64,000 bases of DNA, taken from positions 11,452,744 to 11,516,743 of the forward strand of contig OX637393.1 of assembly GCA_951799425.1 (NCBI GenBank), in the 5' to 3' direction. This stretch comes from Ilex aquifolium. Taxonomy: Eukaryota > Streptophyta > Magnoliopsida > Aquifoliales > Aquifoliaceae. Both the position numbers and the translations under genes were made by a program. The notes beneath the pieces were generated by a model. The model did no database searches. It saw only the letters and a program-made list of their open reading frames with translations, and had not been told where the DNA came from. The first letter of the stretch is position 1, and each line of letters opens with the position of its first letter. Positions 8,320 to 51,474 of the stretch are shown piece by piece.

Positions 8320-8477
8320 ATGAGCAATACTATGACAACCTTATTTAGGGACTTAATAATGTGATTTCAATGAAACTATTGGATTAATTATGAGTTCTAA
8401 TGTTAGATGGAACCCACAACCAATCCAATGATTGTACATTATTAGGTCCCTAAATTAGTTCCAAATAACATTTTCCA
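8320..8477. mobile_element. Small fold-back MITE 3' of BBE-like copy 1
   Basis: The arm TTATTTAGGGACTTAATAATG at 8343 pairs with the complement TAATTTAGGGACCTAATAATG at the right, so the whole ~155 bp can fold into one hairpin. It lies just past the end of BBE-like copy 1. The matching 3' flank of copy 2 (around 55580-55620) shows no such hairpin. Confidence 0.55.
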
Positions 8478-8496
8478 ACACAAATATATGAAACTT

Positions 8497-10119: not shown

Positions 10120-10251
10120 GTTTGATTTCCTCTTTTTTGTTACAAAGACTTTTTGAGCTTGCATGTTGATTACTACATGAAATTTATAGAGGCTTCTTTG
10201 CGGATAGACAAGCTATGGTAATGTTACTTCACTTGGTCTATAGAAAAATAA

Positions 10252-22232: not shown

Positions 22233-22869
22233 CACTACAAGAAAGATGGAAAAATCCGGCATTTAATTTCCGACGTTTAACTTAAACGTCACTAAAACTA
22301 GCATTTCTTTCTACATCCCAGTAATTATTAATAAAAAAATAATAAATATATATATATTTTTTTTGCTTAATTTTCCGGCATTTAAGTCAAACGCCACAAA
22401 TTATTAATAAAAATAATAAATTTTTTTTTTTTCGCTTAATTTCCGGCATTTAAGTTAAACGTCACAAATTCTTAATTAAAATAATAAAAAGTTTTTTTTT
22501 CTCCCCCAACATAAACCTAATTTTTCCCCAATTCATTCTGTCGACTTTTCTCTCTCTCTCCGACGAACTCTTCCTCCTCTCTGAGTGTTCGAGACTACCT
22601 CAGGCGACAGGCAATTCCGACTACCTCAGGCAGCTCCAAAGTCTCCGGCGACTTCAATTGTGTCTCAAACAGGTCTCTCAATCCAAATTCAGCCTCCCTT
22701 GCTTTCCCGGCAGTCTGCACGATTATCCAACTGAGTATGTTTCAATTGTGTGAAACTGAATTTAAATACGCATGTTTAAATTACTGGTTTGATTACATAT
22801 TTTCTACTTTCTCATCTCTGTCCCTGCCTCCCCCTATCTCCTTCAAGAAAATCTCACTCACACACCTCC

Positions 22870-23250
22870 CCACCCTCCACCTGTTTGAGAAAATGCCTGA
22901 AAGAAGCCAACAGAATCAAGCAACTCCCTATCGTCTCTATTAGCTGGCCACATGGATTGAGCATACACAGCTTGGAGCCTGTCAATCCTGATAATACATT
23001 CCTTTCTCCTCAAGTGGAAGGCATACATACCATAATCAAGCAAATCCGATATGAACTTAGTCAGCTAGTTTGTTTCTTTTTAAAAGCAGGATGGATGATT
23101 CCATTGCATAACTCTAATTTGTCCATTTTAGACATACATTCTTTCATCCTCTTCAAAACAATAGGCATAGCAGATGCATTGCTCAAAATCTTTTGTTTCA
23201 ACAATTGTATTTTATCAGCATTCTCCTGATCCTCTTCTGCTAGCAAAGCC
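22870..23250 (-). pseudogene. Unrecognised coding fragment in CACTA element
   Basis: Two minus-strand frames read like a real protein: first LAEEDQENADKIQLLKQK followed by an amphipathic, probably coiled-coil stretch, then HLRRKECIIRIDRLQAVYAQ and ANRDDRELLDSVGFF. They are adjacent but in different phases, so a frameshift or lost intron lies near 23065. The second ends at a donor-like CAAACAG/GTGGAG. It runs against the transposase direction. I do not recognise the family and do not name one. Confidence 0.45.
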
Positions 23251-24390
23251 CCATTACCGAAATCAACAGGTCTTTTTTTTTTTTGGCTATAGATTTCTGT
23301 TTATTGGAAATTCGAGAAAACACTGGCATCCACACCACTCCGTTAAGCTTAGTGAGATCATTTTTCTAATTAGTTGATTGGATTATTGCATTAACATTTG
23401 AGAACAAAATTAGCATAAAAATATACAATTCAGAACTTCATTTCCCGTTCTTATAGTCTAGTATCCAGGATTCTAATTGGGTTGTACATTGTGTGGCACA
23501 ATATACACGGAGGCAGTGGTGATATCTGTTAATAATATATCAGGATTCGTATCTATAGATAAGGACGGAAGTTGGGTTTGCACCGGCGGACATAAGCACA
23601 AAACAAAGTATCATCCAGATCCTGTAAGTTGTGATCCCATTTTTTGCTTATGTGATTAATTTATTTACCATAGTTCCAGTGATTTTATCCCCTGATTAAT
23701 GCTTTCATAGAATGGATAATTTGCTTTGGGCTTCTAGCTAATTTTTTTCTGTACCTCATGATTTAAATAATTAATCGAGTGTGATTAGTGTAAATTTGTA
23801 AGGAATTGATGATGCAGTTAGATTTAATTATAGCAGGTGATTTTAATATTTTTTTGTGCTTTATTTGGATTGCCTAATATTGGGAAATGAAAAGAGTGGG
23901 GATTATTATGTTGGTTTTGGGCATAAGAGAATGAAGTCCAAAGATTTTATTAACAAATGGCCCTATATTAGAATGATGAATAACTTCAATCTATTCTCAA
24001 ATAGCTCATGAGTATATGAACTTTTATTTCCATCCTTTTTTTTTCTGTTAGATTTTTGAAAACTAAACTTTTAGAGTTCAATATTGTGGTTGATCTCATA
24101 TTGATCTAACTATATACGATATGCCATGAATTTGATTGTACATAATTATTAAAAAATATGGTATAGGATTGCCGAGTTTCCAATTCTTTTTTTTCCTTGT
24201 TTTTTTTTTTTTTTGTGTTCAATTATTTTGGTATCTTGAAACCGCATATGTTTGATGGTTCAGATTTGCAAGCATATCATATTGGAATACGTTTATGGAT
24301 AAGAGTTGGATACATTTTCATAGACTGGAACCGTTGTACGAACAAGGAGTTAAGAATTTTATCTAGTTTGTATGTGAAAATAAACCAAAT

Positions 24391-25165
24391 GCACTGGAAC
24401 TCACGTGCCCATGCAAAAAATGTCGTAATGTTAGTTTGGTAAAATTTGAACTTTTGGAAGAGCATTTGATTGTAGATGGGTTTCTTGAGATTTACACTAG
24501 TTGGATTTTTCATGGGGAAAGTTTATTTGCTTCGGTTTCTAGAGATAATGAATCAAGTGACTCTAGTTTGGGAGATGAAATTCAAGAAATGTTGCATGAT
24601 GCATTTGGGATTCCCCCTCCAAGTCCAATTTGTGGAATGACTAGTGACGAACCTGAAAGGGATAATAGAGAAGGGCCAGATTAGGCGACAGAAAAAATTT
24701 TCAAACTGTTGAGTGAAGCTTAACGCAAGTTATATCCGGGATGTACCATGTTTTTGACACTGTCATCTGTCGTTCAATTGATGCATATCAAGTGTCTTAA
24801 TGGATGGAGCGACAAGTCATTCACAATGTTACTTCAAGTATTAAAGGATATGTTACCTAAGGGTAACACGTTGCCAACTTCATTTTATGCAACTAGGCAG
24901 TTGATTAAAGGTTTAGGTCTAGATTGCATTAAGGTACATGCATGTCCCAATGATTGCATGTTGTATTGGAAGGAGACAGCTGCTATGAATGACTGTCAGA
25001 AATGTCAAACATCTAGATATAAACAAATTGATGGTCAAGGAGATGAAACAAATTGATGGTCAAGGAGATGAAACAAATATTGGAGGGCAAAAAATCCCGC
25101 AAAAAGTTGTAAGGTATTTCCCTTTAATACCGAGACTTCAGAGATTGTTTATGTCATCAAAAGAA
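24391..25165 (+). pseudogene. CACTA (TNP2-type) transposase relic
   Basis: The order of motifs is that of plant En/Spm transposases. CPCKKCRN (zinc motif of the transposase-associated domain) lies near 24404, then LVKFELLEEHLIVDGF and YTSWIFHGES, an acidic linker (SSDSSLGDEIQEMLHDAFG), then KLYPGC, HIKCLNGWSDKSFTMLL, HACPNDCMLYWKE and QKCQTSRY, and finally VVRYFPLIPRLQRLFMSSK. The frame is broken at least three times: before 24436, by TAG at 24682, and around 25055. The DDE catalytic half is missing. A 26-bp direct duplication lies at 25027-25075 (ATTGATGGTCAAGGAGATG twice). Confidence 0.85.
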
Positions 25166-25300
25166 GGAAGATTCATTTTTATTCATTTTTTTGTTTTATT
25201 TTCTAAAATATTAATATTCAATTTACTATTTTTTGTTTTGACTATTACTATATGAGACAGAGAAATCTATATATGGATATAGATAAATATGAGAGAAAAT

Positions 25301-26216
25301 TTTTTTTAATGTTAGTCAACCCCAAGAAGTCTAAAAAAGTTTGAGGAGAAGAAAAGAAGGAAGAACGGACTAAATTTTGAAGGATTAACGCGTAGTAATC
25401 GCATCAAAATGTGTTAGGATCAATTATCTTAGGATTAAGGTAGGGATTATTGGATAGATTCATTCATTGATGATTGTGGCTATATACAATATCTTTCTCA
25501 TCTCTATTATAATATAAATAATAGATCCATAATGTTTTCTTGTTTGTTGGACCTTATGATTCGTTTCTTGAATAAAATATATGGTTTAGATCCGAGATTC
25601 ATTCTTTCTTGTTGTAGAAATCCTAGTTCTTGAAAAATACATAATTTAGGCACAAGATTTATTCGTTCTTGATTGAAAAATTCGAGTTATTGATTTACAA
25701 TCCTATCTATGTGATAGATCTTTAACATTTTATATTCTTTTTGAATATATGCTTAAATTCTTGAATAAACATATGATTTACATATAAATACATATTTTAC
25801 ATCAAAAAATTATATGTTTTGATTAAAACCCTAGATTTTAAATATTGTGAATATGAAGGTTTCTTTTTATGATCAATTTCATGTTTTGCATTGATTACTC
25901 TTCTACTTGAGAATTGTGGAACTATGAATTTTGGTATACGTAAGTTTTTATGAAAAAAGTGTTGTTGTTATCTCTTATATGGGTGGGTGTGATGAACGTG
26001 GATTACACTTGAATTCGTATCGTAGAGTGTTAGAGGTTTTTCTACCTTGAGGGGTTTGCTGGTTGCCTAACACTCATAGGAGATTTGGTTTCTTGCGATG
26101 GTCAACCACTATTTTTTCACGTAGGTTGGAGCCTGGGGCCTAGTATACTATTTCTAGGAAAAGATACATCACTGCTGATAAACAATTTACTTCAATACTA
26201 TTTCTAGGAAAAGATA
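25301..26216. other. AT-rich spacer between CACTA elements
   Basis: No gene is seen. Direct copies of ACTATTTCTAGGAAAAGATAC lie at about 26147 and 26197, and a related shorter ACTAGGAAAAG follows at 26222, just at the left border of the next element, suggesting duplication of its end. Confidence 0.35.
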
Positions 26217-26224
26217 CTATTACT

Positions 26225-27410
26225 AGGAAAAGCATTTTTTGCGACGTTTTTAAATTTGTCGCAAATAGTTTACCATTAGCGACGATTGTTTAATTTCGTC
26301 ACAAATTTCAGTTTTGGTAATTTTTTTAGCGACGTTTTTGAAAAACGTCGCAAATAAACATTTTACTTAAATAAGAAATTTAAAAAATATCAATTTAATT
26401 GACTTTTAGTGACTTTTTTAGAAAACGTCGCAAATAAATAATTTACTTAAATAAAAACTTTTAAAAAAATATCAATTAATTCACTTTTGGCGACGTTTTT
26501 TAAAAACGTCGCAAATAAACATTTTACTTCAATAAAAAATTTAAAAAATATCAATTGAATTGACTTTTAGCGACGTTTTTAAAAAACGTCGCAAATACAC
26601 ATTTTACTTAAAAAAAAACTTTAAAAAAAATATTAATTTAATTGACTTTTAGAGACTTTTTTCAAAAACGTCGCAAATAAACATTTTACTTAAATAAAAA
26701 ATTTAAAAAATATCAAATTAATTGACTTTTAGCGACGTTTTTAAAAAACGTCGCAAATAAATATTTTACTTAAATAAAAATTTTTAAAAAAATATTAATT
26801 AATTCACTTTTAGCGACGTTTTTTAAAAACGTCGCAAATAAACATTTTACTTAAATAAAAAATTTAAAAAATATCAATTGAATTGACTTTTAGCGACGTT
26901 TTTATCAAACGTCGCAAATACACATTTTACTTAAAAAAAAACTTTAAAAAAATATCAATTTAATTGACTTTTAACGACGCAAATAAACATTTTACTTAAA
27001 TAAAAAATTTAAAAAATATCAATTTAATTGACTTTTAGCGATGTTTTTAAAAAACGTTGCAAATACACATTTTACTTCAAAAAAACTTTAAAAAAAATAT
27101 CAATTTAATTGACTTTTAGCGACGTTTTTCAAAAACGTCGCAAATAAACATTTTATTTAAATAAAAAATTTTAAAAATATCAATTTAATTGACTTTTAGC
27201 GACGTTTTTAAAAAACGTCGCAAATAAACATTATACTTTAATAAAAATTTTTAAAAAAATATCAATTAATTCACTTTTAGCTACGTTTTTTAAAAACGTC
27301 GCAAATAAACATTTTACTTAAATAAAAAATTTAAAAAATATATTGACTTTTAGCGACGTTTTTAAAAAACGTCGCAAATAAAAATTTTACTTTAATAAAA
27401 AATTTTAAAA
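26225..27410. repeat. Palindromic GCGACG subterminal repeat array, left
   Basis: About 14 tandem units of ~80 bp. Each has the palindrome GCGACGTTTTTNAAAAACGTCGC (written with small variation) followed by AAATAAACATTTTACTTAA and an AT-rich spacer ending in TTGACTTTTA. Some copies have lost half the palindrome (for example near 26969). The pattern is that of a CACTA subterminal region, but the regular spacing also makes it a satellite-like array. Confidence 0.85.
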
Positions 27411-27419
27411 AAAAATATC

Positions 27420-29385
27420 AATTTAATTCACATGTTAATTTGAATGTTAATTTAATGAAATTGAAAGTCGATTTGATGAAATTTAATGTCAATTTGATAA
27501 ATTGAATGTTAATTTGATAAATCGAATGTTAAAATAATGAAATTGAAAGTCGATTTGATGAAATTACATGTTAATTTGATGAAATTGAATATCCATTTCA
27601 TAAATTGAATGTTAATTTGATGAAATTGAATGTAAATTTGATAAATTGAATATTAATTTGATGAAATTGAATGTCAATTTGATAAATTGAATGTTAATTT
27701 AATGAAATTGAAAGTCGATTTGATGAAATTACATGTTAATTTGATGACATTGAATATCCATTTCATCAATTGAATGTTAATTTGATGAAATTGAATGTAA
27801 ATTTGATAAATTAAATGTTAATTTGATGAAATTGAATGTCAATTTAATGAAATTGAAAGTCGATTTGATGAAATTACATGTTAATTTGATGAAATTTAAT
27901 GTTAATTTGATGAATTGGGTGTTAATTTAATGAAATTTAAAGTTTATTTGATTACTTTAAATGTTTAATTGAATGTTAATTTGATAAATTGAATGTTAAG
28001 TTAATGAAATTGAAAGTCGATTTGATGAAATTACCTGTTAATTTGATGAAATTGAATGTCAATTTGATAAATTGAATGTTAATTTAATGAAATTGAAAGT
28101 CGATTTGATGAAATTACATGTTAATTTGATGAAATTCAATGTAAATTTGATAAATTGAATGTTAATTTAATGAAATTGAATGTCAATTTGATAAATCGAA
28201 TGTTAATTTAAAGAAATTGAAAATCGATTTGATGAAATTACATGTTAATATGATGAAATTTAATCTCCATTTAATAAATGGAATGTTAATTTGATGAAAA
28301 TGAATGTCAATTTGATAAATCAAATGTTAATTTAATAAAATTGAAAGTCGATTTGATGAAATTACATGTTAATTTGATGAAATTGAATGTCAATTTCATA
28401 AATTGAATGTTAATTTGATGAAATTGAATGTCAATTTGATAAATGGAATGTTAATTTGATGAAATTGAATGTCAATTTGATAAATCGAATGTTAATTTCA
28501 TGAAATTGAAAGTCGATTTGATGAAATTACATGTTAATTTGATGAAATTTAATGTTAATTTGATAATTTGAATGTTAATTTGATGAATTGGGTGTTAATT
28601 TAATGAAATTGAAAGTTTATTTGATTACTTTAAATGTTTAATTGAATGTTAATTTGATAAATTGAATGTTAATTTGATGAAATTGAATGTCAATTTGATA
28701 AATTGAATGTTAATTTAATGAAATTTAAAGTCGATTTGATGAAATTACATGTTAATTTGATGAAATTGAATGTCAATTTGATAAATCGAATGTTAATTTA
28801 ATAAAATTGAAAGTCGATTTGATGAAATTACATGTTAATTTGATGAAATTGAATGTCAATTTAATAAATTGAATGTTAATTTGATGAAATTGAATGTCAA
28901 TTTGATAAATTGAATGTTAATTTGATGAAATTAAATGTCAATTTGATAAATCGAATGTTAATTTAATGAAATTGAAAGTCGATTTGATGAAATTACATGT
29001 TAATTTGATGAAATTGAATGTCAATTTGATAATTTGAATGTTAATTTGATGAATTGGGTGTTAATTTAATGAAATTGAAAGTTTATTTGATTACTTTAAA
29101 TGTTTAATTGAATGTTAATTTGATAAATTGAATGTTAATTTGACGAAATTGAATGTCAATTTGATAAATTGAATGTTAATTTAATGAAATTGAAAGTCGA
29201 TTTGATGAAATTACAATTTAATTTGATTAAATTGAATGTCCATTTATTAAATTGAATGTTAATTTGATGAAATTGAATGTCAATTTGATAAATTGAATAT
29301 TAATTTAATAAAATTGAAAGTTAATTTAATGAAATTACATGTTAATTTGATGAAATTGAATGTCAATTGAATGTTAACTAATTAT
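27420..29385. repeat. ~2-kb AT minisatellite
   Basis: Almost entirely built from a ~20-bp word, AATTTGATGAAATTGAATGT and close variants (TTGATAAATTGAATGTTAAT; AAAGTCGATTTGATGAAATT; ACATGTTAATTTGATGAAAT). The words alternate in a higher-order pattern of roughly 80-90 bp, and a longer block with GATGAATTGGGTGTTAATTT recurs at about 27914, 28576 and 29054. It is C-poor on the + strand. No coding sense was found in any frame. Confidence 0.9.
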
Positions 29386-29825
29386 TAGCGACGTTTTTTT
29401 AAATCTTCGCAAAAAAGTGATTACCTCCAAAATTTTTTGTGGCGGGAGAAATGGCTCCCAAATATTTTAAAGGTGGTTGCCTCGAAAAATCGAAGGAAGA
29501 GACATATTAATATTATTTGCGACGTTTTTATAAATCGTCGCAGAAGTCAAAATTTTATTTTTATTTTTGAATTAAATAAATAAGTATTAAATGAAATATT
29601 AATATTATTAGTGACGTTTCTCGAAATCGTCGCAGAAGTGTCAAAACTTTATTGTTGAACACTTAGTGGGAAGATGAAATAGTAATATTATTAGCGACGT
29701 TTTTGTAATTCGTCGCAGAAGTCAAAATTTTATTTTTATTTTTGAATTAAATAAATAAGTATGAGATGAAATATTAATATTATTAGCGACGTTTTTAAAA
29801 AACGTCGCAGAAGTCAAAACTTTAT
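29386..29825. repeat. Further GCGACG repeats
   Basis: Four spaced units (TTAGCGACGTTTTT..TCGTCGCAGAAGTCAAAA) with a different spacer from the 26-kb array: here each is followed by ATTTTATTTTTATTTTTGAA or a variant. They close the repeat-rich left arm before transcript-like DNA starts. Confidence 0.8.
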
Positions 29826-30466
29826 TTCTTGGTTAAAAACCATAAGCCCTAACATATTGTATCAGCCAATGGCCTCCAGGCTCTGCGCCTCCACTCCACC
29901 CAAACCAAACGGCAAAGGCCTCCTCCACGGACCACGCCTCCAGTTCAGTGAGCCCAGCAGCGACACACACTCTCTCGCGTCCATCTGCGACTCTCTCTCT
30001 CTCTCTTCCAGCAGCGAGGAATCTGTGATTTCGAAGTGATTTCAGATTTTGTTCGAAATCTCTCTGTGCAATCGGTTCGAAATCTCTCTGTCCAGCAGCT
30101 TCAACCTGGTTCCAAAGCTTAAATGAGGTGAACTTCTTCTTAATCTGATTTATTTCTTCTATTGTTGGTCCTTTTGGCCACTTTCGTTCGTAGTTCACAG
30201 ACCTGAGCATGCTCTCCCTTGGGGTTTCCTTGATTTTGGGTTTTTTATTTATTTATTTATGATTAGTTTGGTGTTTTTTACGATTTTTCCGGTGACTTGA
30301 GCATTCGAAGAATTCGAATTTCCTCCACTGGTTCACAGACCTGTATATATGTATGTCTCTCTGGCTCACCATTTCTATTTCTTTTTCTTCCCGGCCTCTG
30401 GTACGATGGTGCTGTCGGAAGGAAGTAAATATTGGGGTAAATTTCATGGGTACTTTTCTTTGATAG
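29826..30466 (+). other. Leader-like DNA before RPT2 fragment
   Basis: GC content rises and CT-rich runs (CTCTCTCTCTCTCTCTTCC near 29992) appear, as in a plant 5' leader or first exon with a donor-like AAATGAG/GTGAAC near 30126. None of the RPT2 N-terminal sequence (MGQG.., the coiled coil, LEELIDENHAIV) can be found. The 125-codon frame on the other strand (29833-30210) has no motif that I know. It may be the captured promoter of a different gene. Confidence 0.35.
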
Positions 30467-34185
<3,719 letters not shown>

Positions 34186-34489
34186 GTGAGGCCCAGTTTG
34201 ATTATATAATTGACAAATATTTGCATTAATGGTTCTTTGTTGATTGTGATTTCTAGATTTTGTTTTTTGAGCTCATGATTTCTAGAATTAAATTGTACAA
34301 AAAAGTTTTCTTTTGCTGCTTAAGACGTAAACAACATGCATTCGGATTGTGGCTTGTGGAGTGTTGCCTCCATCCTATGGTGACAGTAGTTTGGGTTGGA
34401 ATTGTGTGTTGAATTGCAATGTTAGATCTTGTATTTTTGTCAAATAGGTAGGAGATATTGAAGAAGGTTGTTCATATCATTGTCTCATT

Positions 34490-35002
34490 TGAAGCTGGTA
34501 AAAGTCTGTGGGGTCATGGGCTGTTTCTACTCTTCTTGGAAGCCTGGATGATGATCTATGAGAAATTTTGCCAGGCCAGTGCATTGTTCTGCTTTTCTGA
34601 AGATGTAGTGGTGCTGCATTCTGGTTGAGCAGGCAGAACTGGTCTGCACTTTTTGTCGAGCTGTTGTCTTGCTGAGCTGCTGTTGTTATCTGCTGTTGTC
34701 TGCTGCTGTAAGGATTTTGGCTGGCGTTTCCTTCTGCATTAGGTGTTAGTTTAAGCTGTGAGGAGCTAGTTGAAGCTGCAATGATCTGGAGGAAATGTGT
34801 CGTGCTGCAGGGTCAAAACAGTGAGCTGCAATGATCTGGAGGCATTTAGTTTTTTTGACATTTCCAATTTGTAATTAGAAATGGTTTAATCCATCTTGAA
34901 TGATTAAAGCCATTTTATTTTTTTTTGTAGAGCTGTTATTCTTTGTTTCTTGTAAATGCATTTTTTGGAATAAAATTTTCCTTTCTTTTAAAAAAAAAAA
35001 AA
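34490..35002 (+). mobile_element. LINE 3' end with poly-A
   Basis: The sequence ends TTGGAATAAAATTTTCC followed by TTTCTTTT and a 12-A tail. GATTAAAGCCATT about 100 bp earlier matches the 3' UTR of the LINE at 3921-4315 (GATTAAAGCCACTT). A local duplication of GAGCTGCAATGATCTGGAGG-like words lies near 34770-34840. No RT frame remains, so it is a strongly 5'-truncated copy or a 3' UTR fragment. I could not fix a target duplication. Confidence 0.5.
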
Positions 35003-35119
35003 TGTTTTTGTTTGAATTTTATTAGAATACCATTTTTAATAGTGGTATTATTGGTGTACATGTGACAAATTTTATTAGAATACCATTTTTTATAAAGGGT
35101 TATTTTTTTAAAAAAATGA

Positions 35120-35637
35120 ACTTTTTAGCGACGATTTTTCTACGTCGCAAATGTATTTATTCAATTATTTTTTGTTTTTTTATTTAAAAAATTATTTGCG
35201 ATGATTTTTTTCCGTCGCTAAAAATTAATTAAATTATTATGTTTTACATTTTTTATTTATGTAAAAAATTATTTGCGACGTTTTTTTTACGTCGCTAAAA
35301 ATTAATTAATTATTATTTTTTACATTTTTATTTTTTAAAAAATTATTAGCGACCTTTTTTTTACGTTGCAAAAAATTAATTTAATTATTATTTTTTATTT
35401 TGTTACGCTGGTGGAATAGATTTTTGCGACTTTTTTTTTACTTTTTGCGACGAAAAAAAAACGTCGCAATTTTTTTTTTTTGCGATGAAAATAAATTTTC
35501 GTCGCAAAATACTTTCTGCGACGAGGCTATTGCGACGACCTTGCGACGAAAAAAAAACGTCGCAAAAAATAATTAGCGACGATTTTTTTGACTTTAGCGA
35601 CGAAAAAAATCGTCGCAAAAAACGATTTTTGTTGTAA
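35120..35637. repeat. GCGACG subterminal repeats, right CACTA end
   Basis: At least ten GCGACGA/TCGTCGC motifs in both orientations within 520 bp, with T-rich or A-rich spacers, ending in ATTTTTGTTGTAATG at 35637. They mirror the motif of the left arm at 26225-27410 but with more variable spacing, as normal for the two ends of a CACTA element. Confidence 0.8.
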
Positions 35638-35739
35638 TGTTAGTTATCTATTTAATGAAGAATCACTGTATTTATTTAATGATACTTTAGTATGCTCTTG
35701 TGGTTTGATGAATTATAGTTAGTTAATGTCTCCATTGTG

Positions 35740-36193
35740 AAATTTGGGGCGTTACACCATTCTTTTCTAACTCATAGGTGTAAAAGAATTTTGGTGATAT
35801 ATATTTTGTTATGTTGCCTTTAATGTTCTCTTCATTGAGTTGTCTAATACAAATTGTATTGTACTCGTATAATATTGTTGGAATGTCTTTTATTGAAGAT
35901 AGTCCACTTTGTTCTTAAATATGTTGGATCATGGATCTTACCCAAATACATTCTCGATTTGCTTCATAGATGACTAATATTTCGGAGTGATTGGATAATG
36001 TAGCTACCATTGTTTGCTTAACCGATTTTCATGATATAGCCATACCACCATAAGTAAACACATATCTAGTTTGTTATTGAGCCTTGTGTAGATCAGAAGG
36101 GTACCTGACATTTGCATATCCAACTAACTATGGACTATGGTCATTCGCATAGAATAACCCCATGTCCACTGTCCCACGGAGATACCGCACTAC
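35740..36193 (-). mobile_element. Old copia fossil, RNase H piece
   Basis: Minus-strand sequence with the flavour of Ty1/copia RNase H (short runs such as VRYLRGTVDMGLFY and GYANVRYPSDLHKAQ). It is cut at 36193 by the younger copia element, and its other pieces resume at 46178. Its 3' LTR is not seen. Broken, many breaks. Confidence 0.75.
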
Positions 36194-37458
36194 TGTTGGA
36201 ACAGAAATCCCAAGAATTATTGACAGTGTGTATGTATCAAATACCAAAAATTTTCCTTTAAAACTGTACATGACGAAATTAGGGTTTACCTTCGAGATTG
36301 CTCTGGATTGAACTCGTCTCAGCACGAACGCAGAACCTAACAACAAACGTGGAAGACAGCTCGACGAACCTCGTAGCCTTCTGTCGTATATCCATCAACG
36401 TCAAAATTCGGATGCAGTGTGGGCTACGAGAACTTCCGAACTTCTATTCTCTCTTTCAGTCTCTCTAAAAAACATGAGTAAAGGATAGTTGTTGATTTAT
36501 AGAGCCTAGATGTCTATATGTAGGCTACGACAGAAACTCTAAGGAGAAATAAGGATCGGACTTTCAATGGGCCTATGATTCCTCTATTCAACCCAAAAGT
36601 AACATCCTACAGCCCATTAATAATAAGTCAGTTCACTAAAAACTTATTATTGATCTCCTGAGCCTTATCTCAAAATTATATTCGAGCTCCTTATTATTAT
36701 ATGTTTAATAATCTCCCCACGTTTAAGATTACAGATGTTCATCAATTAAATAAATTACTGACAATTATATTTAATTGACTTCTATTATTCCTTGAGAACT
36801 TATCACTCAACTTATTTGTCATGTCGGATAATTAAATCCACCTGCAGGGTTAGACATTGAAAAAACTTAAGAGTTTTCTCAAGAGGACATCATCAAACCA
36901 TTTAAATAGTAGGACGTGGTTTCCTTTAATATTCACCGAGCTTATTGACTCAATATGAATCTCACTCTTTGATGAATTAAAGTGAAAAACATTATATGCA
37001 CGTGACAATTAAATATTTCGGGATTAAGAGCATAACCAATCATAATAACCATGAGGTATTTATTATTTTATTGAATTAGTAAACATGAGTCTGTTCAATA
37101 CACAAAGTATACTGATGCAATAATCCAAGACTTCAAACAGTCTCCTACAGTCAAGAAAAACTGTGCCAGAATATTACATTACAATCATACTGATAGTGTG
37201 TCCAATTCTATCTAGGATTGTAAACTTGTACTTATATTATACAAGGATCCGATAATCTGGTATTCTATACATAAGCCGAACTCTACACACCAGATTATCT
37301 AAATGTAAAATATAAGACACACATGCATACCATATATTAAATATACTGCAAATATTTTGCCCATATAGATTCTCAATAAAATGGAAAGAACAAACTTCTA
37401 TTAATTAATAAAACTAGTTTTACTACAAAAAGTAAGCTTTTAATATACTACTCTATCA
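36194..37458 (-). repeat. 3' LTR of copia element
   Basis: 1265 bp, bounded on the + strand by TGTTGGAAC and CTCTATCA, so on the element's strand it runs TGATAGAG..GTTCCAACA. It aligns along its length with 44922-46177. It differs by base changes and by a few indels, for example a 40-bp stretch near 45660 present only in the other LTR. Confidence 0.9.
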
Positions 37459-37499
37459 ATTCTCTCACTTATACTCAAAGACATGCTCTCGTACATCTA

Positions 37500-38240
37500 A
37501 CTCTCATTCCCTCCATATGACTATCAAAAGTCTTTGCTGGTAAGCTCTTTGTAAAGGGATCTGTCAGGTTGTTTACTGATTCAATCTTGGTCACCACTAC
37601 ATCACATCTTCCCACGATATCTCATATAAGGTGATATTTGCGCTCAATGTGCTTCCCCTTCTTATGTGTTTGTGGCTCCTTCAAATTAGCAACCACTCCG
37701 CTATTGTCACAATAAAATGCAATAGATGATTTTATCGAATGTACCACTTCTAAATCCATTAGGAAGTTTCTAAGTCAAACTGCCTCTTTGGCTGCCTCAA
37801 AAATCGCCACGTACTCGGCCTCCATGTTGGAATTAGCAATATAAGATTGCTTGATACTCCTCCAACTTATGGCTCCACCTCTTAGAGTAAACACATATCA
37901 TGAAGTTGACTTTCTAGAATCTCTATCTAACTGAAAATCAGAGTCCGTATACCCGATGGGTACTAGACTATCTGCTTGATAAACTAACATATAATCTCTT
38001 GTCCTTTTCAGGTACTTTAGAATATGTTTTACCGCAGTCCAACATTCTTGTCCAGGGTTAGACTAATATCTACTAACCATGTCAATAGCAAAACAGATAT
38101 CAGGTCTAGTGCAAAGCATAGAATACATGATACTTCCCTCTGCTGAAACATAAGGAACTGCCTTCATGCTCTCTATCTCTTCAGGTGTCTTAGGAAACTG
38201 CTCATTTGACAGATAAACTTCATGTTTGAAAGGAAGAAAT
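37500..38240 (-). mobile_element. Copia RNase H region
   Basis: Minus-strand DNA downstream of the RT piece and next to the 3' LTR, in the place where copia elements encode RNase H. Recognisable short runs include SNMEAEYVA-like words near 37820. Part of the broken element at 36194-46177. Confidence 0.6.
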
Positions 38241-39210
38241 CATTTCTTGGAATTTTGCATGCTAAAATGGGCTAGAATGGTATCGATATAGGTAGTTTGA
38301 GATAAGTCTATCATCCTATCTTTACAATTTTGCATAAGCTTGATTCCAAGGATGTGACTAGCCTTTCCTAGATCCTTCATATCGAACTGATTGGATAACC
38401 ATGCCCTAACAGAAGATAATACCCCCACATTGTTTCCGATGAGCAAGATATCATCCACGTAAATTCCTAGGAACACCACCACATTTCTATCACATCTTTT
38501 ATACACACAGGACTCATCCGGGCATTGATCAAAACCATAAGATTTAATAGTCTGATCAAAATTAATGTTTCAAGATCTAGATGCCTGCTTAAGTCCATAA
38601 ATGGATCTCTTAAGCTTGCATACTAGATGTTATTGGCCCTTTGCTACAAATCCATCTAGTTGTACCGTATAGATACACTCGTCAAGATTCCCGTTAAGGA
38701 ACGCTGTCTTGACGTCCATTTGTCAAATCTCGTAATCGAGATAAGTTGCAATGGATAAGAGAATCCGAATCGACTTTAGCATAGCTACCGGTGAAAATGT
38801 CTCCTCATAATCGATTCCCTCTTTTTAGGAAACCCTTTTGCAACAAGCCTTACCTTATATTTTTCCACCTTACCGTCTGATCCTCTCTTCCTCTTGTAGA
38901 CCCACTTGCATCCAATGGGTTTTATCTCATCGGGTAGTTCTACAAGTTCCCATACCTGATTGGAGTACATGGACTTCATCTCAGACATTATAGCCTTTCC
39001 AAAGATCTGCATCTTTATCTTGGAGTGCTTCGTTGTAGGTCCAGGGATCAGCATTCTGTTCCACAGGAATCTTGTCAAAAGACTCTTCCAAGAACATATA
39101 TCGTTCGGGTTGACGAACAACCCTCCCACTACGACGAGGCTCTGCCTATATATGTGTATTTTCAGTAACATCTTATGCAGGTTCTGCACGAGTATCAATA
39201 TTCCTCCCAC
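38240..39210 (-). mobile_element. Copia reverse transcriptase region
   Basis: Contains GIYVDDILLIGN, the catalytic YVDD signature of copia RT, with FDMKDLGKASHILGIKL after it and the upstream start of the domain (NQVWELVELPDEIKPIGCKW, VYKRKRGSDG). Broken. Confidence 0.9.
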
Positions 39211-40300
39211 TACGACGAGGCAATGGGATATCGTCTACTCTTTCATATGATGCCTCCCCTTGTACAGTTGGTATTGAAGAAGTATTCTCTGATCTGTCTC
39301 CTCTTAACTCTTCGAGAATAATTCTACTCTTAGGCTTGTGATCCATCACATAGTATTCCTCTAAGAATCGGGCATTGGTGCTAACAATGACCTTTTGATC
39401 CTTAGGACTATAGAAAAGACCACCTTTTGTTCCTCTTGGATACCCTACAAACAAGCAAACTTCTGTTCTTGATTCCAACTTATCCGTAGTCCCTTCCAGC
39501 CCATGTGCTAGATTCCCCTAAATCCGAATGTGCCACAAACTAGGCTTATGCCCAGTCCACAATTATGTGAGAGTGGTAGATAATGACTTAGATGGTACCA
39601 AGTTCAGAATGTATGTCGCAGTTTCAATGCATATCCCCAAAAGGAATTTGGTAAAATTGAATAATTCATCATAGATCTCACGATATCCATCAGAGTTCGA
39701 TTCCTTCTTTATGCCACACCATTTTGTTGTGGTGTGTGAGGTGCAGACAACTGGGATGTAATCCCTACCTCTGATAAGTAATCCCTAAACTCTCCTAAGA
39801 GGTACTCGCCACCACGATCAGATCGTAATGTCTTGATACACTTCCCTTGACGCTTCTCCGTTTCAGCTCTCAAAGCATTCAAACTTACGGTGCATCAAAT
39901 AAATGTACCCATACCTTAAATAATCATCAATAAAAGTGATGAAATATTCTAAGCCTTCTCTAGTTTGGACAGTCATGGGTCCACACAAATCAGAATGAAC
40001 CAATTCCAATGGATCCTTTACTCTATAGCCCTTGACCGTAAAGGGCCTCTTGGTCATTTTACTTTCCAAGCAAGATTCACAGACTGAAAGTGCCTCCACT
40101 TCCAATGAACTCAATGGTCCATTTGCAACCAGTCTTTGAATCCTCCTTAAGTTAATATAACCTAGGCGTAAATGCCAAAGATACGTTTGGTTCATTTTAG
40201 AAGATTCATTTCTCTTACATGACGAGGTACTAGTATTATTCAATTCAGTTAATTGCAGTGTAGGTGAGATAGGATTAACAACATAAAGATCATCCACCAA
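39173..40300 (-). mobile_element. Copia GAG-pre-integrase and integrase region
   Basis: WHLRLGYINLRRIQRLV is the GAG-pre-integrase HxxLGH-type motif, followed by CESCLESKMTKRPF (zinc cysteines) and LELVHSDLCGPMTVQTREG (start of the integrase core). Toward 39173 come the C-terminal words CLFVGYPRGTKGGLFYSPKD. Broken. Confidence 0.9.
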
Positions 40301-40499
40301 TGAACCAGATCAGATAAAATGCTTATTATGCTTAATAACCACATAGTCATTAAAATAAATATTATATCCATCTCTAACTAATTTTTAAATCGAAACTAAG
40401 TTTCTTCTAATATCTAGTACATAAAGACAATCTCTCAAAATTAAAATCCTATATCTACCAAAGTGATTAGTACTTAAACTTGACATATTATTATGACAT

Positions 40500-42400
40500 T
40501 TTAAGACTAATTGTACTTTAATGGAGTTTAAGTGATGTCATTTCAGGCCCTAAACTGAACAAGGACCCAAAAATAACAAGTACCACACTTGGATGCAGTG
40601 CCAGTACATTATAGCCCAAAATTGGAGAAGCTTGGAACACTGTCACCACTTTCGAACGGCAACTCACGTTCGAACGTCAAACAAGACACTGTAGTAGACT
40701 CAGATGCTGAGAGATGGCGTGTGGCAGCTAGGAAAGAAGACTGGAACACTGAAGTACTTGAGTGTCACATTCGAACGCCAACTCACGTTCGAACGTGCAC
40801 TTGAGTGGATTGAAGACCAGACCACTGCAGAGAGTTGGTACTGCACTTCACAGGGGACCTACAGATCACTCGAGTGAAAGGGGTCAGAGCAGATCTGGCG
40901 TTCGAATGCCCTCAGTGCCAAAACAGAAGCAACGTTCGAACGACCTCAGTGCAAAAATAGAAAGAACGTTCGAACGCCAACTCACGTTCGAACGTCATCC
41001 ACAGACTGGCTGCAGAGTTGTTGACTGTTCACTTGGACTTGGGCGGCAAACACTATTCTTTCACCCCCCTACCTCCTCATCTTGCCTATAAATACTCCCC
41101 TTGTTGGAGAGCTTGAGGAGCCAAGCATTGTAGGAAGTAGCATAGTGATGGAGGCTTAGACTCCCACTTTCATTGTAGTTAGTTCATTTTCCTTATGAAG
41201 TATTTATTTTAGAGATTAGTTTGGCTTTAGTCCAACATCTCTTGCTTGTTATAGCAGTAGTTTTATGCTTATGTTTATGTCTATGCTTTCAATTCTCATG
41301 CATAGAAGAGAGATAGCTCCCATCTTGGTTGAGGAAGCAACCCTCCAATCTTTGGTTGAGGAAGCCACCCTCCAAATGTGACTAGCTTTCTTCTACTTTA
41401 ATTGTGCATGCATTTCACTTCCATTGCTTGAGCTTCCTTCTTTCTTAGAAGAGTGAAACTCTTCCACTTTTCTAGAGCTTGATCAAAGCCGTGAAGGGTG
41501 GAACGTGATTCACCCATTCTTTGGGGAAGATTTGCTCCGTATTTGTGTTACTCTATCTTTTAAAGTTCTCCACTTGGAGGGATGAGCATCACTCACTTTT
41601 CTAGCTTTACCCAAGCCATGAAGAGTGAGTAGTTTCTCATTCACTCTTTAGTGAGAGGAGAAGGGCATGTATAAGTTATCCGGGAATTATATTTGTGCAA
41701 TGTTCTTTTATGCTTAACGTTTATTTTCCCCTATTATCGGATGATTGATTGCATCTAGCAAAGCTAAGGTACTTTGTATAATTGTGAGTCCTTTCTATGA
41801 CATGGATGACTCCTGCATAGAAAGACTCATCAGTTCAAGGCAAGTACCCCGGCTAGATCCTCATGACTACCTTTCAATCTCCCCCCTTATTGTACTTCAC
41901 TAAAAAGAATTGACTATTAATATCATGATTGGATGTCTTGTAGAAACACTTGATTGTTTGTAGACGGGTTAAGTCTCGGCACAGGCAATGCTTGTAAACT
42001 TCTAGAAAGACATCGGAATCATGTTCTTAATTCTCACAATCCATCTTTATCTTCCGATTAACTTACTGTTGACACGGGAGTTAATTGAGTTATCAAGCAC
42101 AATTATGACAAACCGGATAACTAACTACATGTCCAGATCCTTGCACTAAAGAGTGACTCTTTTTTTTTATTAACATTCATTTCCTAATTTGTTAAGAAAA
42201 TCTCCTGGAAAGAATCTTATATTCTGTCCAGCAAAACCCACATCTCACAGCAAATCCAAATCAAAAAAATGTTACCACCAAAAGGTCTCTACCACTGCTT
42301 ACCTTAGAAATATCAACAAAAGTTCCCTGTGGATTCGACTCCGGACTCAAACCGGATTATTACTACAGCTTGACCACCTGCACTTGGGTGTACATCGGAT
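40500..42400. mobile_element. LTR-like insert inside the copia element
   Basis: About 1.9 kb of non-copia DNA lies between the protease and integrase parts of the copia element. The right edge holds GTTCCCTGTGGATTCGACTC, a motif I associate with Ty3-type LTR or leader ends of plants; the left edge has TGTACTTTAATGG and the right GGGTGTACA, which could be TGTAC..GTACA termini. CGTTCGAACG-type words recur at 40650-41000. No open frame of note. Borders are approximate and no target duplication was fixed. It is probably a solo LTR or a small non-autonomous element. Confidence 0.5.
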
Positions 42401-42439
42401 AGATAGCTGTCACAAAGCATAAATGAAAATCTCCTACTA

Positions 42440-43209
42440 CAACCGTTGCACTCTCGTAGCATTGCCCATGTGCAGATAAATCTCCCCATCACTAAGCCGT
42501 CTAGTTTCCTGGAACCCCTGCAAGTATTTGCAGACATGATTAGTAGCTCATGTATCTACACACCAGGTACCGGTAGATGACACCACTAAACATGATTCAA
42601 CAACTAGTAAATGAGATTTACCTGGATTGTTCATTTTAGAGAGATAGACCGAACATTGTTTTTTCTAGTGCCCTGACTGCTTGAAATGAAAACACTTGCA
42701 TTTAGGCTTTTTCACTACAGCTTGAGGTGCCTTAACCTGCTTTTGAGCATTCCTTTCTTCTTCTTACCCTGCGGCTTAGAATTATAACATTTCTCAATCA
42801 CATAAACGCGACCCTGCTTCTGAAGCAGACCCTCAGCTACTTGGAGTTCCTTAAGAAGTTTCGCCAATGTATAAGAACACTTATTCATATTGTAATTTAG
42901 GTGAAACTGCTTAAAGGACTTTGACAGAGATTGGAGTATGATAACAACCTGGGTTTCCTCGTCAATCTCAGCTCCTAGGATCTCTAGCTCATTAAGGAGA
43001 CTCATCATCTTCAGACAATGATCTCTTACTGGTGTCTCTTCAGCCATATTTGTGTCCATCAGATCCCTCATCGCCACTTGCCTAGCAACACAATTTTGGT
43101 CCCCAAATATATTTTTGAGGCTCAAAATCATTTCATAGGCGGTGGCCATAGACTCATGCTGATGCTGCAACACACCTGACATAGATGAAAAAATGTAACA
43201 CCGCATCAT
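42440..43209 (-). mobile_element. Copia gag and protease region
   Basis: The gag piece has copia-type words (YEMILSLKNIFGDQN, RDHCLKMMSLLNELEILGAE, LAKLLKELQVAEGL) and leads to a zinc-knuckle-like stretch near 42680. Beyond it (toward 42440) are protease-side words such as ETRRLSDGEIYL. Broken. Confidence 0.85.
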
Positions 43210-44921
43210 CTCATCAGCCTTTGTTCACCTCCGATAAGCCAGGACATCCACTTCGAGTGCCCCATCATCAGGTTCATCTGGATAGGAATCAATGAGCACA
43301 AATTTGTACTCTTCAGCAGTTAACACAATATCTAATTTTTTTTTTCAGTCTATATAGTTTGATCCATCTAGTTTGTGTTCTTTAAGTATAACAAAAAGAA
43401 GATTGAATGAATCACTCATTTTAAAAAACCTGAAAATCACATAATTAAAAATTATGATGGGCAAAATAAAACATCGAATTCAAAATTTAAATTTGATTCC
43501 CTCTACCAATATATAAATGAATTCACCAACAACCTGAAACACCACGAATAACATGCCTCGATAGGGAATGACGTATGCTATCCATCATTTGTCCAGACAT
43601 GCCATTGCCTATTAATTTTACTATTTAGCCAGTATACCATGACAAAAAAAATTAAATAGCTGGCTTAGCTTTAGTCCTATAAATAACAGCAGTCACTCAG
43701 ATAGGGAGGATATTATTATTTATAGCTAAGTGTATAGCATTACTCAATTTTGTGTCAATAGTTTCGTAACGAACCCCCTTCAGATGGAGAAGTGAGCTCA
43801 TACTAGCAATTACCCAAAATTATCCCTATAGGAAGTTTGAACCAGTGATGATATAATTAATTTCATCTAATAGAGAGGAAGGTATTAAAGCCAACACGCA
43901 AAATTAATTACATTACCTACAAACCAGTAATGGAGACCGTGGGATTTATACAAAATAATTTTCCTCTCCCACTTAGTTATTTAATTCCTTTGTGAGGGTT
44001 TTTCAAAAAATATATCCAATTTGTATTGACTTAAAATATAAGGATGTTTGCCATTTTTATAAAGATATACGGGTTACCCCATCTTTATATGTAGTATGTA
44101 TAATAAATAAAATTTCAAATCCTCACAACTATTTTTAAAAAAAATTAGAGGATTTTATTTTATTTTCTAATTACACATACATACTTTGAACATCCTTATT
44201 TTAAATCAATATAATTAAATATTAATTCATGACCAAAAAATCTAAGGTAGGTCAATTATCCATGTTATCCATATATTAGGGTATTGTTGTACAATTTAAC
44301 TACCCACATAATCAGAAGATGAATAAAACATAGAGATTAATAAAAACAAGGAGACTAAATAAAATAAGGACTCCCAACTATTATGGTCATATCTTCAGTT
44401 TCAATCCAACAAAGACTCTCCAGTAATCTGAGATGAATCCAGCTACGTCCATGTTGCGCTTTGACAGAATTTCGGGGAAACGATTTTCTAAATCGCATAC
44501 TAGGGTTCCGCCATGAAAACTGTTTTAAAAACAGCTTTGCAAACTAGGGTTTCTATCACAAAAACTGTTTCTAGAACAATCATCTTCCTCAGTAACATCA
44601 CAACAGAGAACATTATACATGGCCCTATGCCTCCATGAGGGAGTTCACATCCCAAAATAATTATTACAGAAAAATACGAATAAACCATCGTATAAATCCT
44701 TTGCAATAATATTAACCACGAATAAACCATTGTGGGATCCAATCACATAAAACGATAATAAAATTATGTGACCATAATAGCAGGACAAGAACGCTGCAAA
44801 ATAGGGATTAGTATAGTTCTACGTTCTACTCATCATTCATGGTATACATCTTTTCGTTTTACTTGGACAACATGGCAATATTTGATCTATACGCGGTATC
44901 AACAATGACTCGCATACCACT
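43210..44921 (-). mobile_element. Copia 5' untranslated and gag start region
   Basis: The interval between the gag piece and the 5' LTR. Near 43210-43420 there is still gag-like minus-strand sequence. The rest is AT-rich, with no clear frame until the primer-binding-like site at 44910-44921. Short open frames (44500-44742) have no motif. It is part of the copia element. Confidence 0.6.
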
Positions 44922-46177
44922 TGTTGGAACTAAAATCCCAAGAATCATTGACAACGCATATGTATCGAATACCAAATTTTTTTCCTTAAAACCCTACAAG
45001 GCGAAATTATGGTTTACTTTCGAGATTGCTCTGGATTGATCTTGTCTCAGCACGAACGCAGAACCTAACAATAAACGTGAAAGACAGTTCGACGAACCTA
45101 GCGGCCTTCCGTCGTATATCCACTAACCTCAAAATTCGGATGCAGTGTGGGCTGCCAGAACCTTCGAACTTCTGCTCTCTTTTTCAGCCTCGCTCAAAAA
45201 CGTGAGTGAAGAATAAATGCTGATTTAGAGAGCCTAGATGTCTATATATAGGCTATGACAGAAACCCTAAGGAGAAATAATGACTGGGCTTCCAATGGGC
45301 CTATGATTCCTATGTTCAACCCAGAACAAACATCCTATAGCCCATTAATAATAAGTCAGTCCACTAAAAATTTATTATTGATCTCTTGAGCCTTATCTCA
45401 AAATTATATTCGAGCTCCTTATTATTATATGCTTAATAATCTCCCCACGTTTAAGATTACAGATGTTCATCAATTAAATAAATTACTGACAATTATATTT
45501 AATTGACTTTTTTTATTCTTTGAGACATTACCACTTAACTTAGTTGTCATATCGGATAATTAAATCCACCTGCAGGGTTTAACATGGATAAAACTTATGA
45601 GCTCCCTCAAGAAGACATCATCAACCCATTTAAATAGTAGGACGTGGTTTCCTTTAATAATTAATTTTCACCATTCAAAAACATCGTCTCTCCAATTCAT
45701 AGAGCTTATTGACTCAATATGAATCTCACTCTTTGATGAATTAAAGTGACAAACATTATATGCACGTGACAATTAAATATTTCAGGATTATGAGCATAAG
45801 CAATGGGTCTGTTCAATATACAAAGTGTACTAGTGCAATAATCTGAGACATCAAACAGTCTCCTGCGATCAAGACAAACTATGCCAGGATATTACACTAT
45901 AATTATACTGATGGTGTGTCCAATTTCATCTAAGATTGTGAATTTATACTCATATTATACAAGGATCATATAATCTAGTATTTTATGCATAAGCCGAACT
46001 CTATACACCAGATTATCTACAATATAAAATATAAGACACACATGCATACCACATGATAAATATAATGCAAATATTTTGCCCATATAAATTCTCAATAAAA
46101 TGGAAAGGACAAACTTCTATTAATCAATAAAATGAGTTTTACTACAAAAAATAAGTTTTTAGTATACTACTCTATCA
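44922..46177 (-). repeat. 5' LTR of copia element
   Basis: 1256 bp; the + strand starts TGTTGGAAC and ends CTCTATCA, the same as the 3' LTR. On the element's strand it is followed at once by GTGGTATGCGAG, the primer-binding-like site. Both LTRs contain the GATTGCTCTGGATTGA and CTCAGCACGAACGCAGAACC words. Confidence 0.9.
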
Positions 46178-48250
46178 ATTCATGTTTGATCCTATTTCAT
46201 TGTCTTCGAGTTAGTGTTGAGTTGTACCTTGCTAGTAAGTTAACTACATATGATAGGTCTGGCCTCGTACAATTTGAAAGATACATTAGTGTACCAATTG
46301 CATGGAGATAAAGGTGCTTCAAGACCAAGAAGTTTTTCACCTTCTTCTTGAGGACAAAATGGATCCTTCTTTATATCTAGTGATCGAACGACGATTGTGA
46401 ACTCAATGGATGAGATTTATCCATATAGAATTGTTTCAGGACCTTTTCTGTGTATGCTGATTGATACACAAAAACTCCATTAGATAAATGTTCAATCTGT
46501 AGGTCAAGGTAAAATTTTGTTTGCCCAAGATCTTTTATCTAAAACTTAATTTTAAATAGTTTGAGGATTTTATGAGTTCTTTAGGAGTGCCTACTAGATT
46601 TATATCATCAACATACACAACGATAAAAGGAAATCCACTATTAGATATTTTAATAAGAATACATAAACATATCAAATCATTGATATATCCCTCTTTCAAG
46701 AGATATTCACTACGATGATTATACCACATCCACCCTAATTGTTTTTGATCAACTATAACTTTATTTCAATTCCATCTTTTTTTATTGTGCACATAGTTTA
46801 TAGAGATCTCATCATTCTTAGGTACCTAAGTCTCACCCAAAGATATTTAAGACTCTTTAGGAGTTTAATGAGCCTCAACAAGAGATAATTGTTTTGGGGG
46901 ATGACTCTCTTTGGGAACACAAACTTTTGGTTTTGTGTTCCCTCATGGAACATTAACTTCTTTATTTATTCTCTCTTGTCCTCTCTTCTTTCTAGGGAAA
47001 ATATCTTTTGCACTGGTAGGTCTAGTACGCTTCAGGAGTGCCTTAGACTCATTTACAATTGTGCAGGGATATTAATTCTTATTGGTGCATTTGCAGTTGG
47101 CACATGTGACTTTGTTACTTTATTTCTATCGGTGAATGTATCATGTAAGTTATTTGTGATACCTTACAAATGAATGATTCTTTGAACTTCCAATTAAAAT
47201 TGATTTGTTCGGGGATCAAAATGAGATAACGATGGAACATTCCAAGTGATCTTATGTTGTTGTTTTGGTTTTTTATTATCTCCCCCTAATGGTGGAAAGA
47301 CTAAATCATCGAAATGATAATCTATAAAACATGCTTTAAATACATCACCAGTTAAATATTCAAGGTATCTAATTATCGAAGGAGAGTCAAATCCAACATA
47401 AATACCAATTCGATGTTGTTGACTCTTTTTGGTCCATTGTGGTGGTGGAATTGGAACATATACAACTCAACAAAAAATTCATAGGTGAGAAATATTTGGT
47501 TACTAACCAAGAAAAAGTTGTGCTCGTGATTATTGGTCGAACACAAATTAAAGGTTCTGAATGCAATACAATATGTACCCAAGCAAAAATAGGTAATTTT
47601 GACTTCATATGTATAGGTCGAGCTATCAATTGAATATGTTTAATAAAATACTAATCTAGACCATTCTAGGTGTTAGTGTGTACAGCTGGATGCTCAATAT
47701 CCATACCTACTGACATGCAGTAGTTATTGAATGTCTGGGACGTAAGCTTACCAACATTATCCAGACGAATTGACTTTATTAAATAATTTAGAAATTGTGC
47801 TTGCAATCAGGTTATTTGAGCAAGAAACCTTGCAAATGCGACATTATGTGTAGAAAGTAGACACATATATGATCATCTTATTGATGCATCAACTTTAACC
47901 ATGATATAACGAAATGAACCACATATATCTCCCTAAATTAGGGGATGGTCTAATAATCAGTTTACCTTGTGAACAAGTAAGCCATGGGTAATCACTTGGG
48001 AAAAGAATCTTCTAGTTCTTTATAGAATATCCGTGTGAGTTACCGAATTTAAATGATGCTCATATGAAGCTTCTAAGTTAGTTACTGTCAATTGCTACTA
48101 AGAAACCTGAATAAAACATATCAAAGGGCTTTATAGGCATCTGCCATATTCCTTCCCCTATTTGACTAGTCATTCATTCACGTGAGTCCTGTGATTGTCA
48201 CATAAAACAACATTATGTAGGTAGTTTCTATTTGTTGATTTGATTTTTAT
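46178..48250 (-). mobile_element. Old copia fossil, RT and integrase pieces
   Basis: Continues the fossil whose RNase H lies at 35740-36193 on the far side of the younger element. Copia words on the minus strand: VVYVDDINLVG near 46610 (RT), then integrase-side sequence with FHHHNGPKRV near 47440 and a region to about 48200 resembling the integrase core. Broken, many breaks; older than the nested element by position. Confidence 0.75.
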
Positions 48251-51099: not shown

Positions 51100-51474
51100 T
51101 TAAGAACGAATAATTTAGTTGCTAAAAGTTTGGACTATTTTTGGCGATGAAAATATTTCCTCGCTAAAGTAATGAGTTAAAATGTTGAAGGGTTTTTTGG
51201 TGATGACATTCAATTTATTGTGACAAATATTTGGACATTTAGTGAGGAATATATTTGTCATAGATTGATTTTATCTTTCACAACGAATTAGATTTGTCAC
51301 AAAAAAATAAGCTTTTGGCAACGACTTCAACATTTCGTCGCAAAAAACTTTCAGTAGCAAACCTACAGCGACAAATGAGAGACGACAAAATGTCGTCACC
51401 AAAAGTTTTCAGCGATGAATTTCATACTTTTGGCGATGAATTTTTTCGTAACGGAAAAACAAATTTGTTGTAGT
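51100..51474. mobile_element. CACTA right terminus with subterminal repeats
   Basis: Ends GGAAAAACAAATTTGTTGTAGTG at 51474, which complemented begins CACTACAACAAATTTG. Upstream, the words TTTGGCGATGAA, TTTGTCAC(A/G) and GACGA(A/T)ATG..CGTC(G/A) recur in both orientations, the subterminal pattern of CACTA elements. The next base resumes old copia sequence. No left terminus matching it was seen. Confidence 0.7.

Follow-up and report, generated by a model that had tools for sequence, protein, structure and literature searches.

We have found in the genome of the holly Ilex aquifolium a stretch of about 9.4 kb that is very probably a non-autonomous, Pack-CACTA-like DNA transposon of the CACTA type, or the remnant of one, carrying a piece of the host gene RPT2 (PSMC1, the 26S proteasome regulatory subunit 4) captured as genomic DNA. 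It occupies positions 26218-35639 of a 64-kb window (contig OX637393.1, positions 11,452,744 to 11,516,743 of the forward strand), which is the whole stretch of DNA that was analyzed and the source of all the DNA evidence given here; coordinates below are those of the window. A sequence-only reading of the same DNA had described five RPT2 exons with intact ATPase motifs between two arrays of a palindromic motif. Both tblastn and the motif counts bear this out, and its coordinates agree with ours within 1-2 bases. The anatomy of the element, the identity of the gene, the parts missing from it and the sequence shared by its arms are directly observed. Beyond that reading, we also observe that one exon has lost 57 nt, that the arm motif recurs at the junction left there, that the left terminus is poor and that no target-site duplication stands in register.

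RPT2 exons and the arms that enclose them

The exons were located with spinach RPT2 (PDB 8amz_I, 444 amino acids) as the tblastn query against the window; human RPT2 was also run. Five of them were found:

30467-30538, plus strand: RPT2 exon covering part of the OB domain (residues 136-159 of spinach), with its AG and GT borders retained (tblastn)
32033-32221, plus strand: RPT2 exon truncated at its 5' side, residues 179-241, with Walker A (tblastn)
33477-33646, plus strand: RPT2 exon with the pore loop and Walker B (tblastn)
33718-33934, plus strand: RPT2 exon with sensor 1 and the arginine-finger region; the donor CAA|GTGCAT scores lowest of the five (tblastn, splice scoring)
34045-34185, plus strand: RPT2 exon with the AAA lid, ending at residue 417 (tblastn; PF17862, E 1.1e-9)

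The tblastn E-value was 1.9e-89 for the three exons at 33477-33646, 33718-33934 and 34045-34185; the remaining two had 5.7e-34 and 2.3e-10. The four core exons span spinach residues 179-417 with 231 of 239 residues identical; the 30467 exon has 21 of 24, and on it the Pfam OB model gave E 0.24, which does not reach the cut-off. Where spinach and human agree with each other, the holly copy differs by Q261K, R367H and A401T in the core and by S138G and S153A in the 24-residue exon. The ATPase motifs of the core, including RPGRIDRK, are intact in the tblastn alignment, among them those that we take to be Walker A, Walker B, the pore loop and the arginine finger. Joined together, the five exons give 263 codons with no stop. 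Among the best 60 of 216 matches to solved structures, spinach RPT2 scored 498 bits, human RPT2 450-452 and yeast RPT2 411-419; the top AAA protein other than RPT2 was a VCP-like ATPase at 418 bits, matched in two stretches. The fold of the fragment follows from these matches to RPT2 structures.

Introns are present between the exons, indicating captured genomic DNA; a retrocopy of RPT2 was therefore rejected. The exon borders are AG and GT throughout, except at the 5' edge of the 32033 exon. No match to residues 1-135, 160-178 or 418-444 was obtained by tblastn in the 64 kb (the remaining rows, two from spinach and five from human, had E 3.1 or worse), nor was any further RPT2 exon found anywhere in it, so that the first exons and the last are absent, as the sequence-only reading had stated. 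The copy differs from RPT2 by lacking the N-terminal coiled coil, the OB domain apart from those 24 residues, which are all that is left of the N-terminal part, the C-terminal HbYX tail and the MGQ start, presumably a myristoylation site.

On both sides of this host gene DNA lie arms made of repeats:

26241-27431, plus strand: left subterminal array 1, with 80/161-bp tandem units and 9 exact GCGACG...CGTCGC palindromes (repeat and motif scan)
27440-29368, plus strand: AT-rich minisatellite (1.9 kb) with a 41/83/124-bp period, within the left arm between the two left arrays (repeat scan)
29388-29827, plus strand: second left array, with 92/175-bp units and 3 exact palindromes (repeat and motif scan, alignment to the right arm)
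35128-35638, minus strand: right subterminal array, inverted with respect to array 1, with 5 exact palindromes (motif scan, alignment)

We counted 49 hexamers GCGACG/CGTCGC in the whole window; 47 fall within 26218-35639, 46 of these in the arms and one at 32022. Across 100 Markov simulations the count per window averaged 2.06 and never exceeded 6. Exact palindromic units number 17, every one in the arms (simulated mean 0.0). Array 1 aligned with the reverse-complemented right arm over ~340 bases at a score of 124, and none of 100 shuffles exceeded 47; masking of the hexamers left a score of 91 (shuffle maximum 38). Aligned without inversion, the masked sequences scored 29, which 14 of the 100 shuffles reached. 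Array 1 is related to the second left array too (score 70 against 31). These alignments indicate that both arms are made of a single repeat family, that array 1 is an inverted counterpart of the right arm, and that subterminal repeats, direct and inverted, are present at both ends as in CACTA elements. The sequence-only reading had named two findings that would tell against capture, RPT2 N-terminal exons just outside the element and flanking repeats from two unrelated elements, and neither was encountered in the window.

No transposase gene was recognized inside. Transposase families of Pfam matched none of the 46 non-RPT2 open reading frames (ORFs) of at least 45 amino acids in 29830-35120, and none of 8 among 16 further ORFs of the arms, the other 8 being frames of the minisatellite; shorter remnants could escape such a Pfam search. 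Rfam, at its gathering thresholds, gave 0 matches in 24001-37500.

Termini, target site and the proposed route of capture

At the outer edges of the arms lie two putative termini:

26218-26240, plus strand: left terminus, TATTACTAGGAAAAGC and on as far as the first GCGACG, aligned in register to the right terminus; two CACTA mismatches (end-to-end comparison)
35623-35639, minus strand: right terminus CATTACAACAAAAATCG, one mismatch to CACTACWASAAA (end comparison, pattern scan)

We take CACTACWASAAA to be the consensus of CACTA termini. Compared in inverted orientation, the two ends agree at 17 of the first 24 bases beyond the outermost motifs and at 8 of the 20 after those; a match of 17/24 was reached by 8 of 20000 random pairs from the window and by 73 of 20000 pairs from the region of the element. 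The right end reads CATTACAACAAA, with its single mismatch. Sites at one mismatch from CACTACWASAAA number two in the window (35639 and 39734) where 1.6 are expected, so the right end weighs mainly by its position exactly at the edge of the arm. Exact copies of CACTACWASAAA stand at 22233 and 51475 and were found in none of 20 simulations; we count them, and the Transpos_assoc remnant described below, in favour of a CACTA origin.

Several observations weigh against it. The left terminus, TATTACTAGGAAAA, is degraded, with its two mismatches in CACTA itself. Annotation of Pack-TYPE elements relies on the terminal inverted repeats and on the target-site duplication, and the 3-bp duplication that CACTA elements should have, and that the sequence-only reading had put forward as a check, is absent in register (TAC at the left, TTA at the right). 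Off register, three of 144 triplet combinations match (TTA twice and TAT once), about the 1-in-64 expectation; one of them has its right end exactly at 35639 and would place the left start at 26223. A search around the ends for duplications of 3, 5, 8, 9 and 10 bases, made with no simulated control, gave none in register; off register, a 3-base duplication turned up three times and a 5-base one (CTATT) once, and none of 8-10 bases was seen even with one mismatch allowed. The sequence CTAGGAAAAG appears three times, at 26154 and 26204 just outside the left terminus and at 26223 within it. Finally, with hexamers masked, the second left array matched the right arm in either orientation, scoring 30 inverted and slightly higher, 33, direct (shuffle maxima 24 and 26). 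The left arm is not wholly a simple inversion of the right one, and its second array has no clear orientation.

The absent duplication and the poor left terminus would also fit a partial RPT2 copy made by segmental duplication or recombination, with the flanking repeats as separate insertions of the same repeat family, and transposon remnants are indeed dense nearby (a pair resembling long terminal repeats (LTRs) at 36194-37462 and 44922-46181 and a transposase-associated domain at 24367-24681). Such an origin is nevertheless unlikely: the sequences beyond the outermost motifs agree, inverted and in register, the arms align over hundreds of bases, and a flanking RPT2 exon was found on neither side. 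Of the Pack-CACTA capture that the sequence-only reading proposed, the arms of one family, the near-canonical right terminus, the introns and the failure to find flanking exons speak for it, and the degraded left end and the missing in-register duplication speak against it.

A further observation concerns the broken exon:

32018-32031, plus strand: junction TTTTAGCGACGAAA, which resembles the arm motif; RPT2 residues 160-178 (19 codons) are lost here (motif scan, tblastn, window scoring)

The first core exon (32033) has lost 57 nt of RPT2 from its start, and the junction holds one of the only three GCGACG/CGTCGC hexamers outside the arms. With a composition-weighted score it was the best of 1048 internal 30-base windows (14.6, the next being 13.5). 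With a plain score it was the third-best place, two AT-rich places (five windows) being higher at 15.0-15.5 against 14.5. Outside the element 4 of 2151 windows scored above it, one of them in a CACTA-like end at 51 kb. These scores are suggestive of a transposon-end remnant at the junction. If it truly is one, it would be a small piece of evidence for capture through fusion or rearrangement of neighbouring elements.

The transposon that we prefer to see here would be built of subterminal repeat arrays of one family as arms and, as interior, a stretch of host RPT2 together with leader and tail DNA. RPT2 would have been taken up as genomic DNA, exons plus the introns between them. Capture by fusion of neighbouring insertions has been proposed for Pack-TYPE elements (PMC8903248) and is restated in a review (PMC13317346); along this route, proposed for such DNA in general, neighbouring elements of the same family would fuse and then move as a single unit, and the arm motif at the broken exon may be a leftover of that fusion or of a later rearrangement. 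Since no transposase was recognized inside, the element would have been mobilized by the enzyme of an autonomous relative, and because its left end is degraded it is most likely immobile today. The RPT2 piece would now most likely be a silent or sporadically spliced passenger.

Coding potential of the captured fragment

Two regions of the interior flank the RPT2 exons and could contribute exons of their own:

29860-30127, plus strand: leader, richer in G+C and with CT repeats, with a possible first exon (ATGAG|GTGAAC at 30123-30128) (splice-path search; no Pfam match at or above the cut-off)
34448-34980, plus strand: 3' region that replaces the last RPT2 exon, with a possible terminal exon VGDIEEGCSYHCLI-stop (splice-path search; no Pfam match)

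The idea that the leader (29828-30466) is the transposon's own DNA was tried by comparison with the 5' region (22470-24250) of a neighbouring CACTA element and rejected (31, with a maximum of 39 in 60 shuffles). In comparisons with the remaining sequence of the window on either strand (1-26000 and 36201-64000; 8 shuffles for each), the leader and the first intron did not rise above shuffles, and the 3' region scored 48 on the plus strand, the shuffles reaching 39.

One splice path leads from the leader (ATGAG|GTGAAC) to TTTTAG|CGACG at 32023 and on to 34448 in an open frame of 258 amino acids, and its predicted product is MSDER, the RPT2 AAA core and VGDIEEGCSYHCLI. We have considered whether such a protein, made by the element, interferes with or decoys the assembly of the proteasome base, given that the frame is open from 30123 through the 3' exon and that Tgm-Express1 of soybean is reported to splice captured fragments into chimeric transcripts with open frames (PMC1947982). 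We find this highly improbable. The splice sites of this path, scored with a weight matrix, are weak: the new acceptor (32023) has -2.7, the four RPT2 acceptors being at 0.3 to 7.9; the new donor has 2.1 and the RPT2 donor at 33935 has -1.5, the other four RPT2 donors being at 4.5 to 6.9; and the 3' acceptor has 1.5. An in-frame ATG is equally reached by other paths (42 of 416 donor-acceptor combinations). Nor is the intactness of the frame a sign of use: in neutral simulations (2000 copies each) at 1 and 1.5% divergence, 80 and 73% of the copies stayed free of stops, with a mean of 5.5 and 8.3 amino-acid changes. Intactness as a mark of constraint was accordingly rejected, youth of the copy fitting equally well.

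What is known of the proteasomal ATPases points the same way. They consist of an N-terminal coiled coil, an OB fold and AAA domains, with a C-terminal HbYX motif in RPT2 among others, and Rpt1 and Rpt2 are described as binding Hsm3 and Rpn1 ahead of ring formation, the coiled coils serving for pairing (PMC8134078). The captured fragment has neither end, N-terminal or C-terminal, and with no coiled coil, without most of the OB domain and without the C-terminal tail it is more likely inert. In the Arabidopsis rpt2a knock-out, methylation is reported to go up at transgenes, AtSINE1 and AtGP1, and not at AtCOPIA4 and AtMEA-ISR (PMC3353898). Because some transposons became more methylated without RPT2a, reduced RPT2 activity would, if anything, tend towards transposon silencing, and a plain benefit of interference to the element is not evident. 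We give hardly any credence to the fuller scheme in which the promoter comes from the transposon, as does a splice acceptor placed within what remains of the transposon's subterminal motif, and in which the truncated RPT2 so expressed changes either the assembly of the proteasome base or the DNA methylation linked to RPT2.

Small RNAs have been associated with gene fragments captured by other plant elements, and the arms here are rich in palindromes and inverted copies; that the copy serves as a small-RNA source dampening the parental RPT2 is nonetheless extremely improbable.

Neighbourhood and known systems

The surroundings hold other mobile DNA. About 1.5 kb to the left of the element, 24256-24681 codes for the transposase-associated domain PF13963 (Transpos_assoc), which we take to be of the CACTA transposase type; it is broken by a stop, with E 1.9e-15 for 24367-24681 on one side and a weak E 0.038 for 24256-24363 on the other. 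Open pieces up to 25252 resemble a CACTA transposase by eye and have no Pfam transposase match. The exact terminus at 22233, of the CACTA type, reads CACTACAAGAAAG (CACTACAAGAAA) and is followed by a subterminal motif of its own, CCGGCATTTAA, in three copies. This terminus may belong to the same element as the PF13963 remnant (22233-25252), whose right end was not found, since CCGGCATTTAA is absent from the other strand of the window. At 51121-51475 there is the apparent right end of another CACTA-like element, with the reverse complement of CACTACAACAAATTTG and degenerate motifs like GCGATG/CGTCGC; its left end was not found in the window. To the right of the holly element, the LTR-like pair is 83.5% identical, and 36194-46181 is probably an old retrotransposon of the Copia type with gag, pre-integrase and reverse transcriptase pieces on the minus strand. 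Two copies of a berberine-bridge-enzyme-like gene, 88.6% identical, lie on the minus strand at 8477-10210 and 55610-57339, and both look broken: a stop splits one frame and a frame change the other. These genes, the Copia and CACTA-type remnants and an RPT2 that among solved structures is nearest to the spinach one make the window plant DNA by its content.

Relatives of the element in plants were sought via viral contigs, and none that was useful appeared among the 80 retained of 300 related stretches (top identity 45%); the arm motif had 0 matches in prokaryote contigs. A literature search for a captured proteasome ATPase found no report among the matches listed, a weak negative given the library searched, and another, for GCGACG with CACTA or subterminal, found the hexamer in none of the CACTA papers among the matches listed.

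The holly element adds to the gene-carrying CACTA-like elements of plants one in which a single fragment spans a whole AAA ATPase core. It is also a trap for annotation, as gene finders could call the captured fragment an RPT2 gene. If expressed, it would be a natural test of a proteasome ATPase core without its assembly domain.

Gene pick-up is well known for elements of this type, and the one described here is another instance of the known gene-carrying CACTA kind. Tgm-Express1 of soybean, as described, is a CACTA element carrying fragments of five host genes (PMC1947982). It shares with the holly element the CACTA type and the presence inside of exon and intron pieces of host genes; the holly element differs in having a single recognizable host gene, with five exons covering the whole AAA core, and degraded ends. 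The Tpn1 family of Japanese morning glory has a reported average length of 7,081 bp, and its non-autonomous members are alike in that captured genic DNA replaces the interior and terminal and subterminal repeats are kept; Tpn1 copies are reported with a 3-bp duplication (one with 5 bp, 14 with a mismatch), whereas the holly element has none in register (PMC5105172). The Pack-CACTA and other Pack-TYPE elements of Arabidopsis, rice and maize are likewise non-autonomous, with captured coding DNA between transposon ends (PMC8903248), and from these the holly element differs by its degraded left end and, again, by the lack of a duplication in register.

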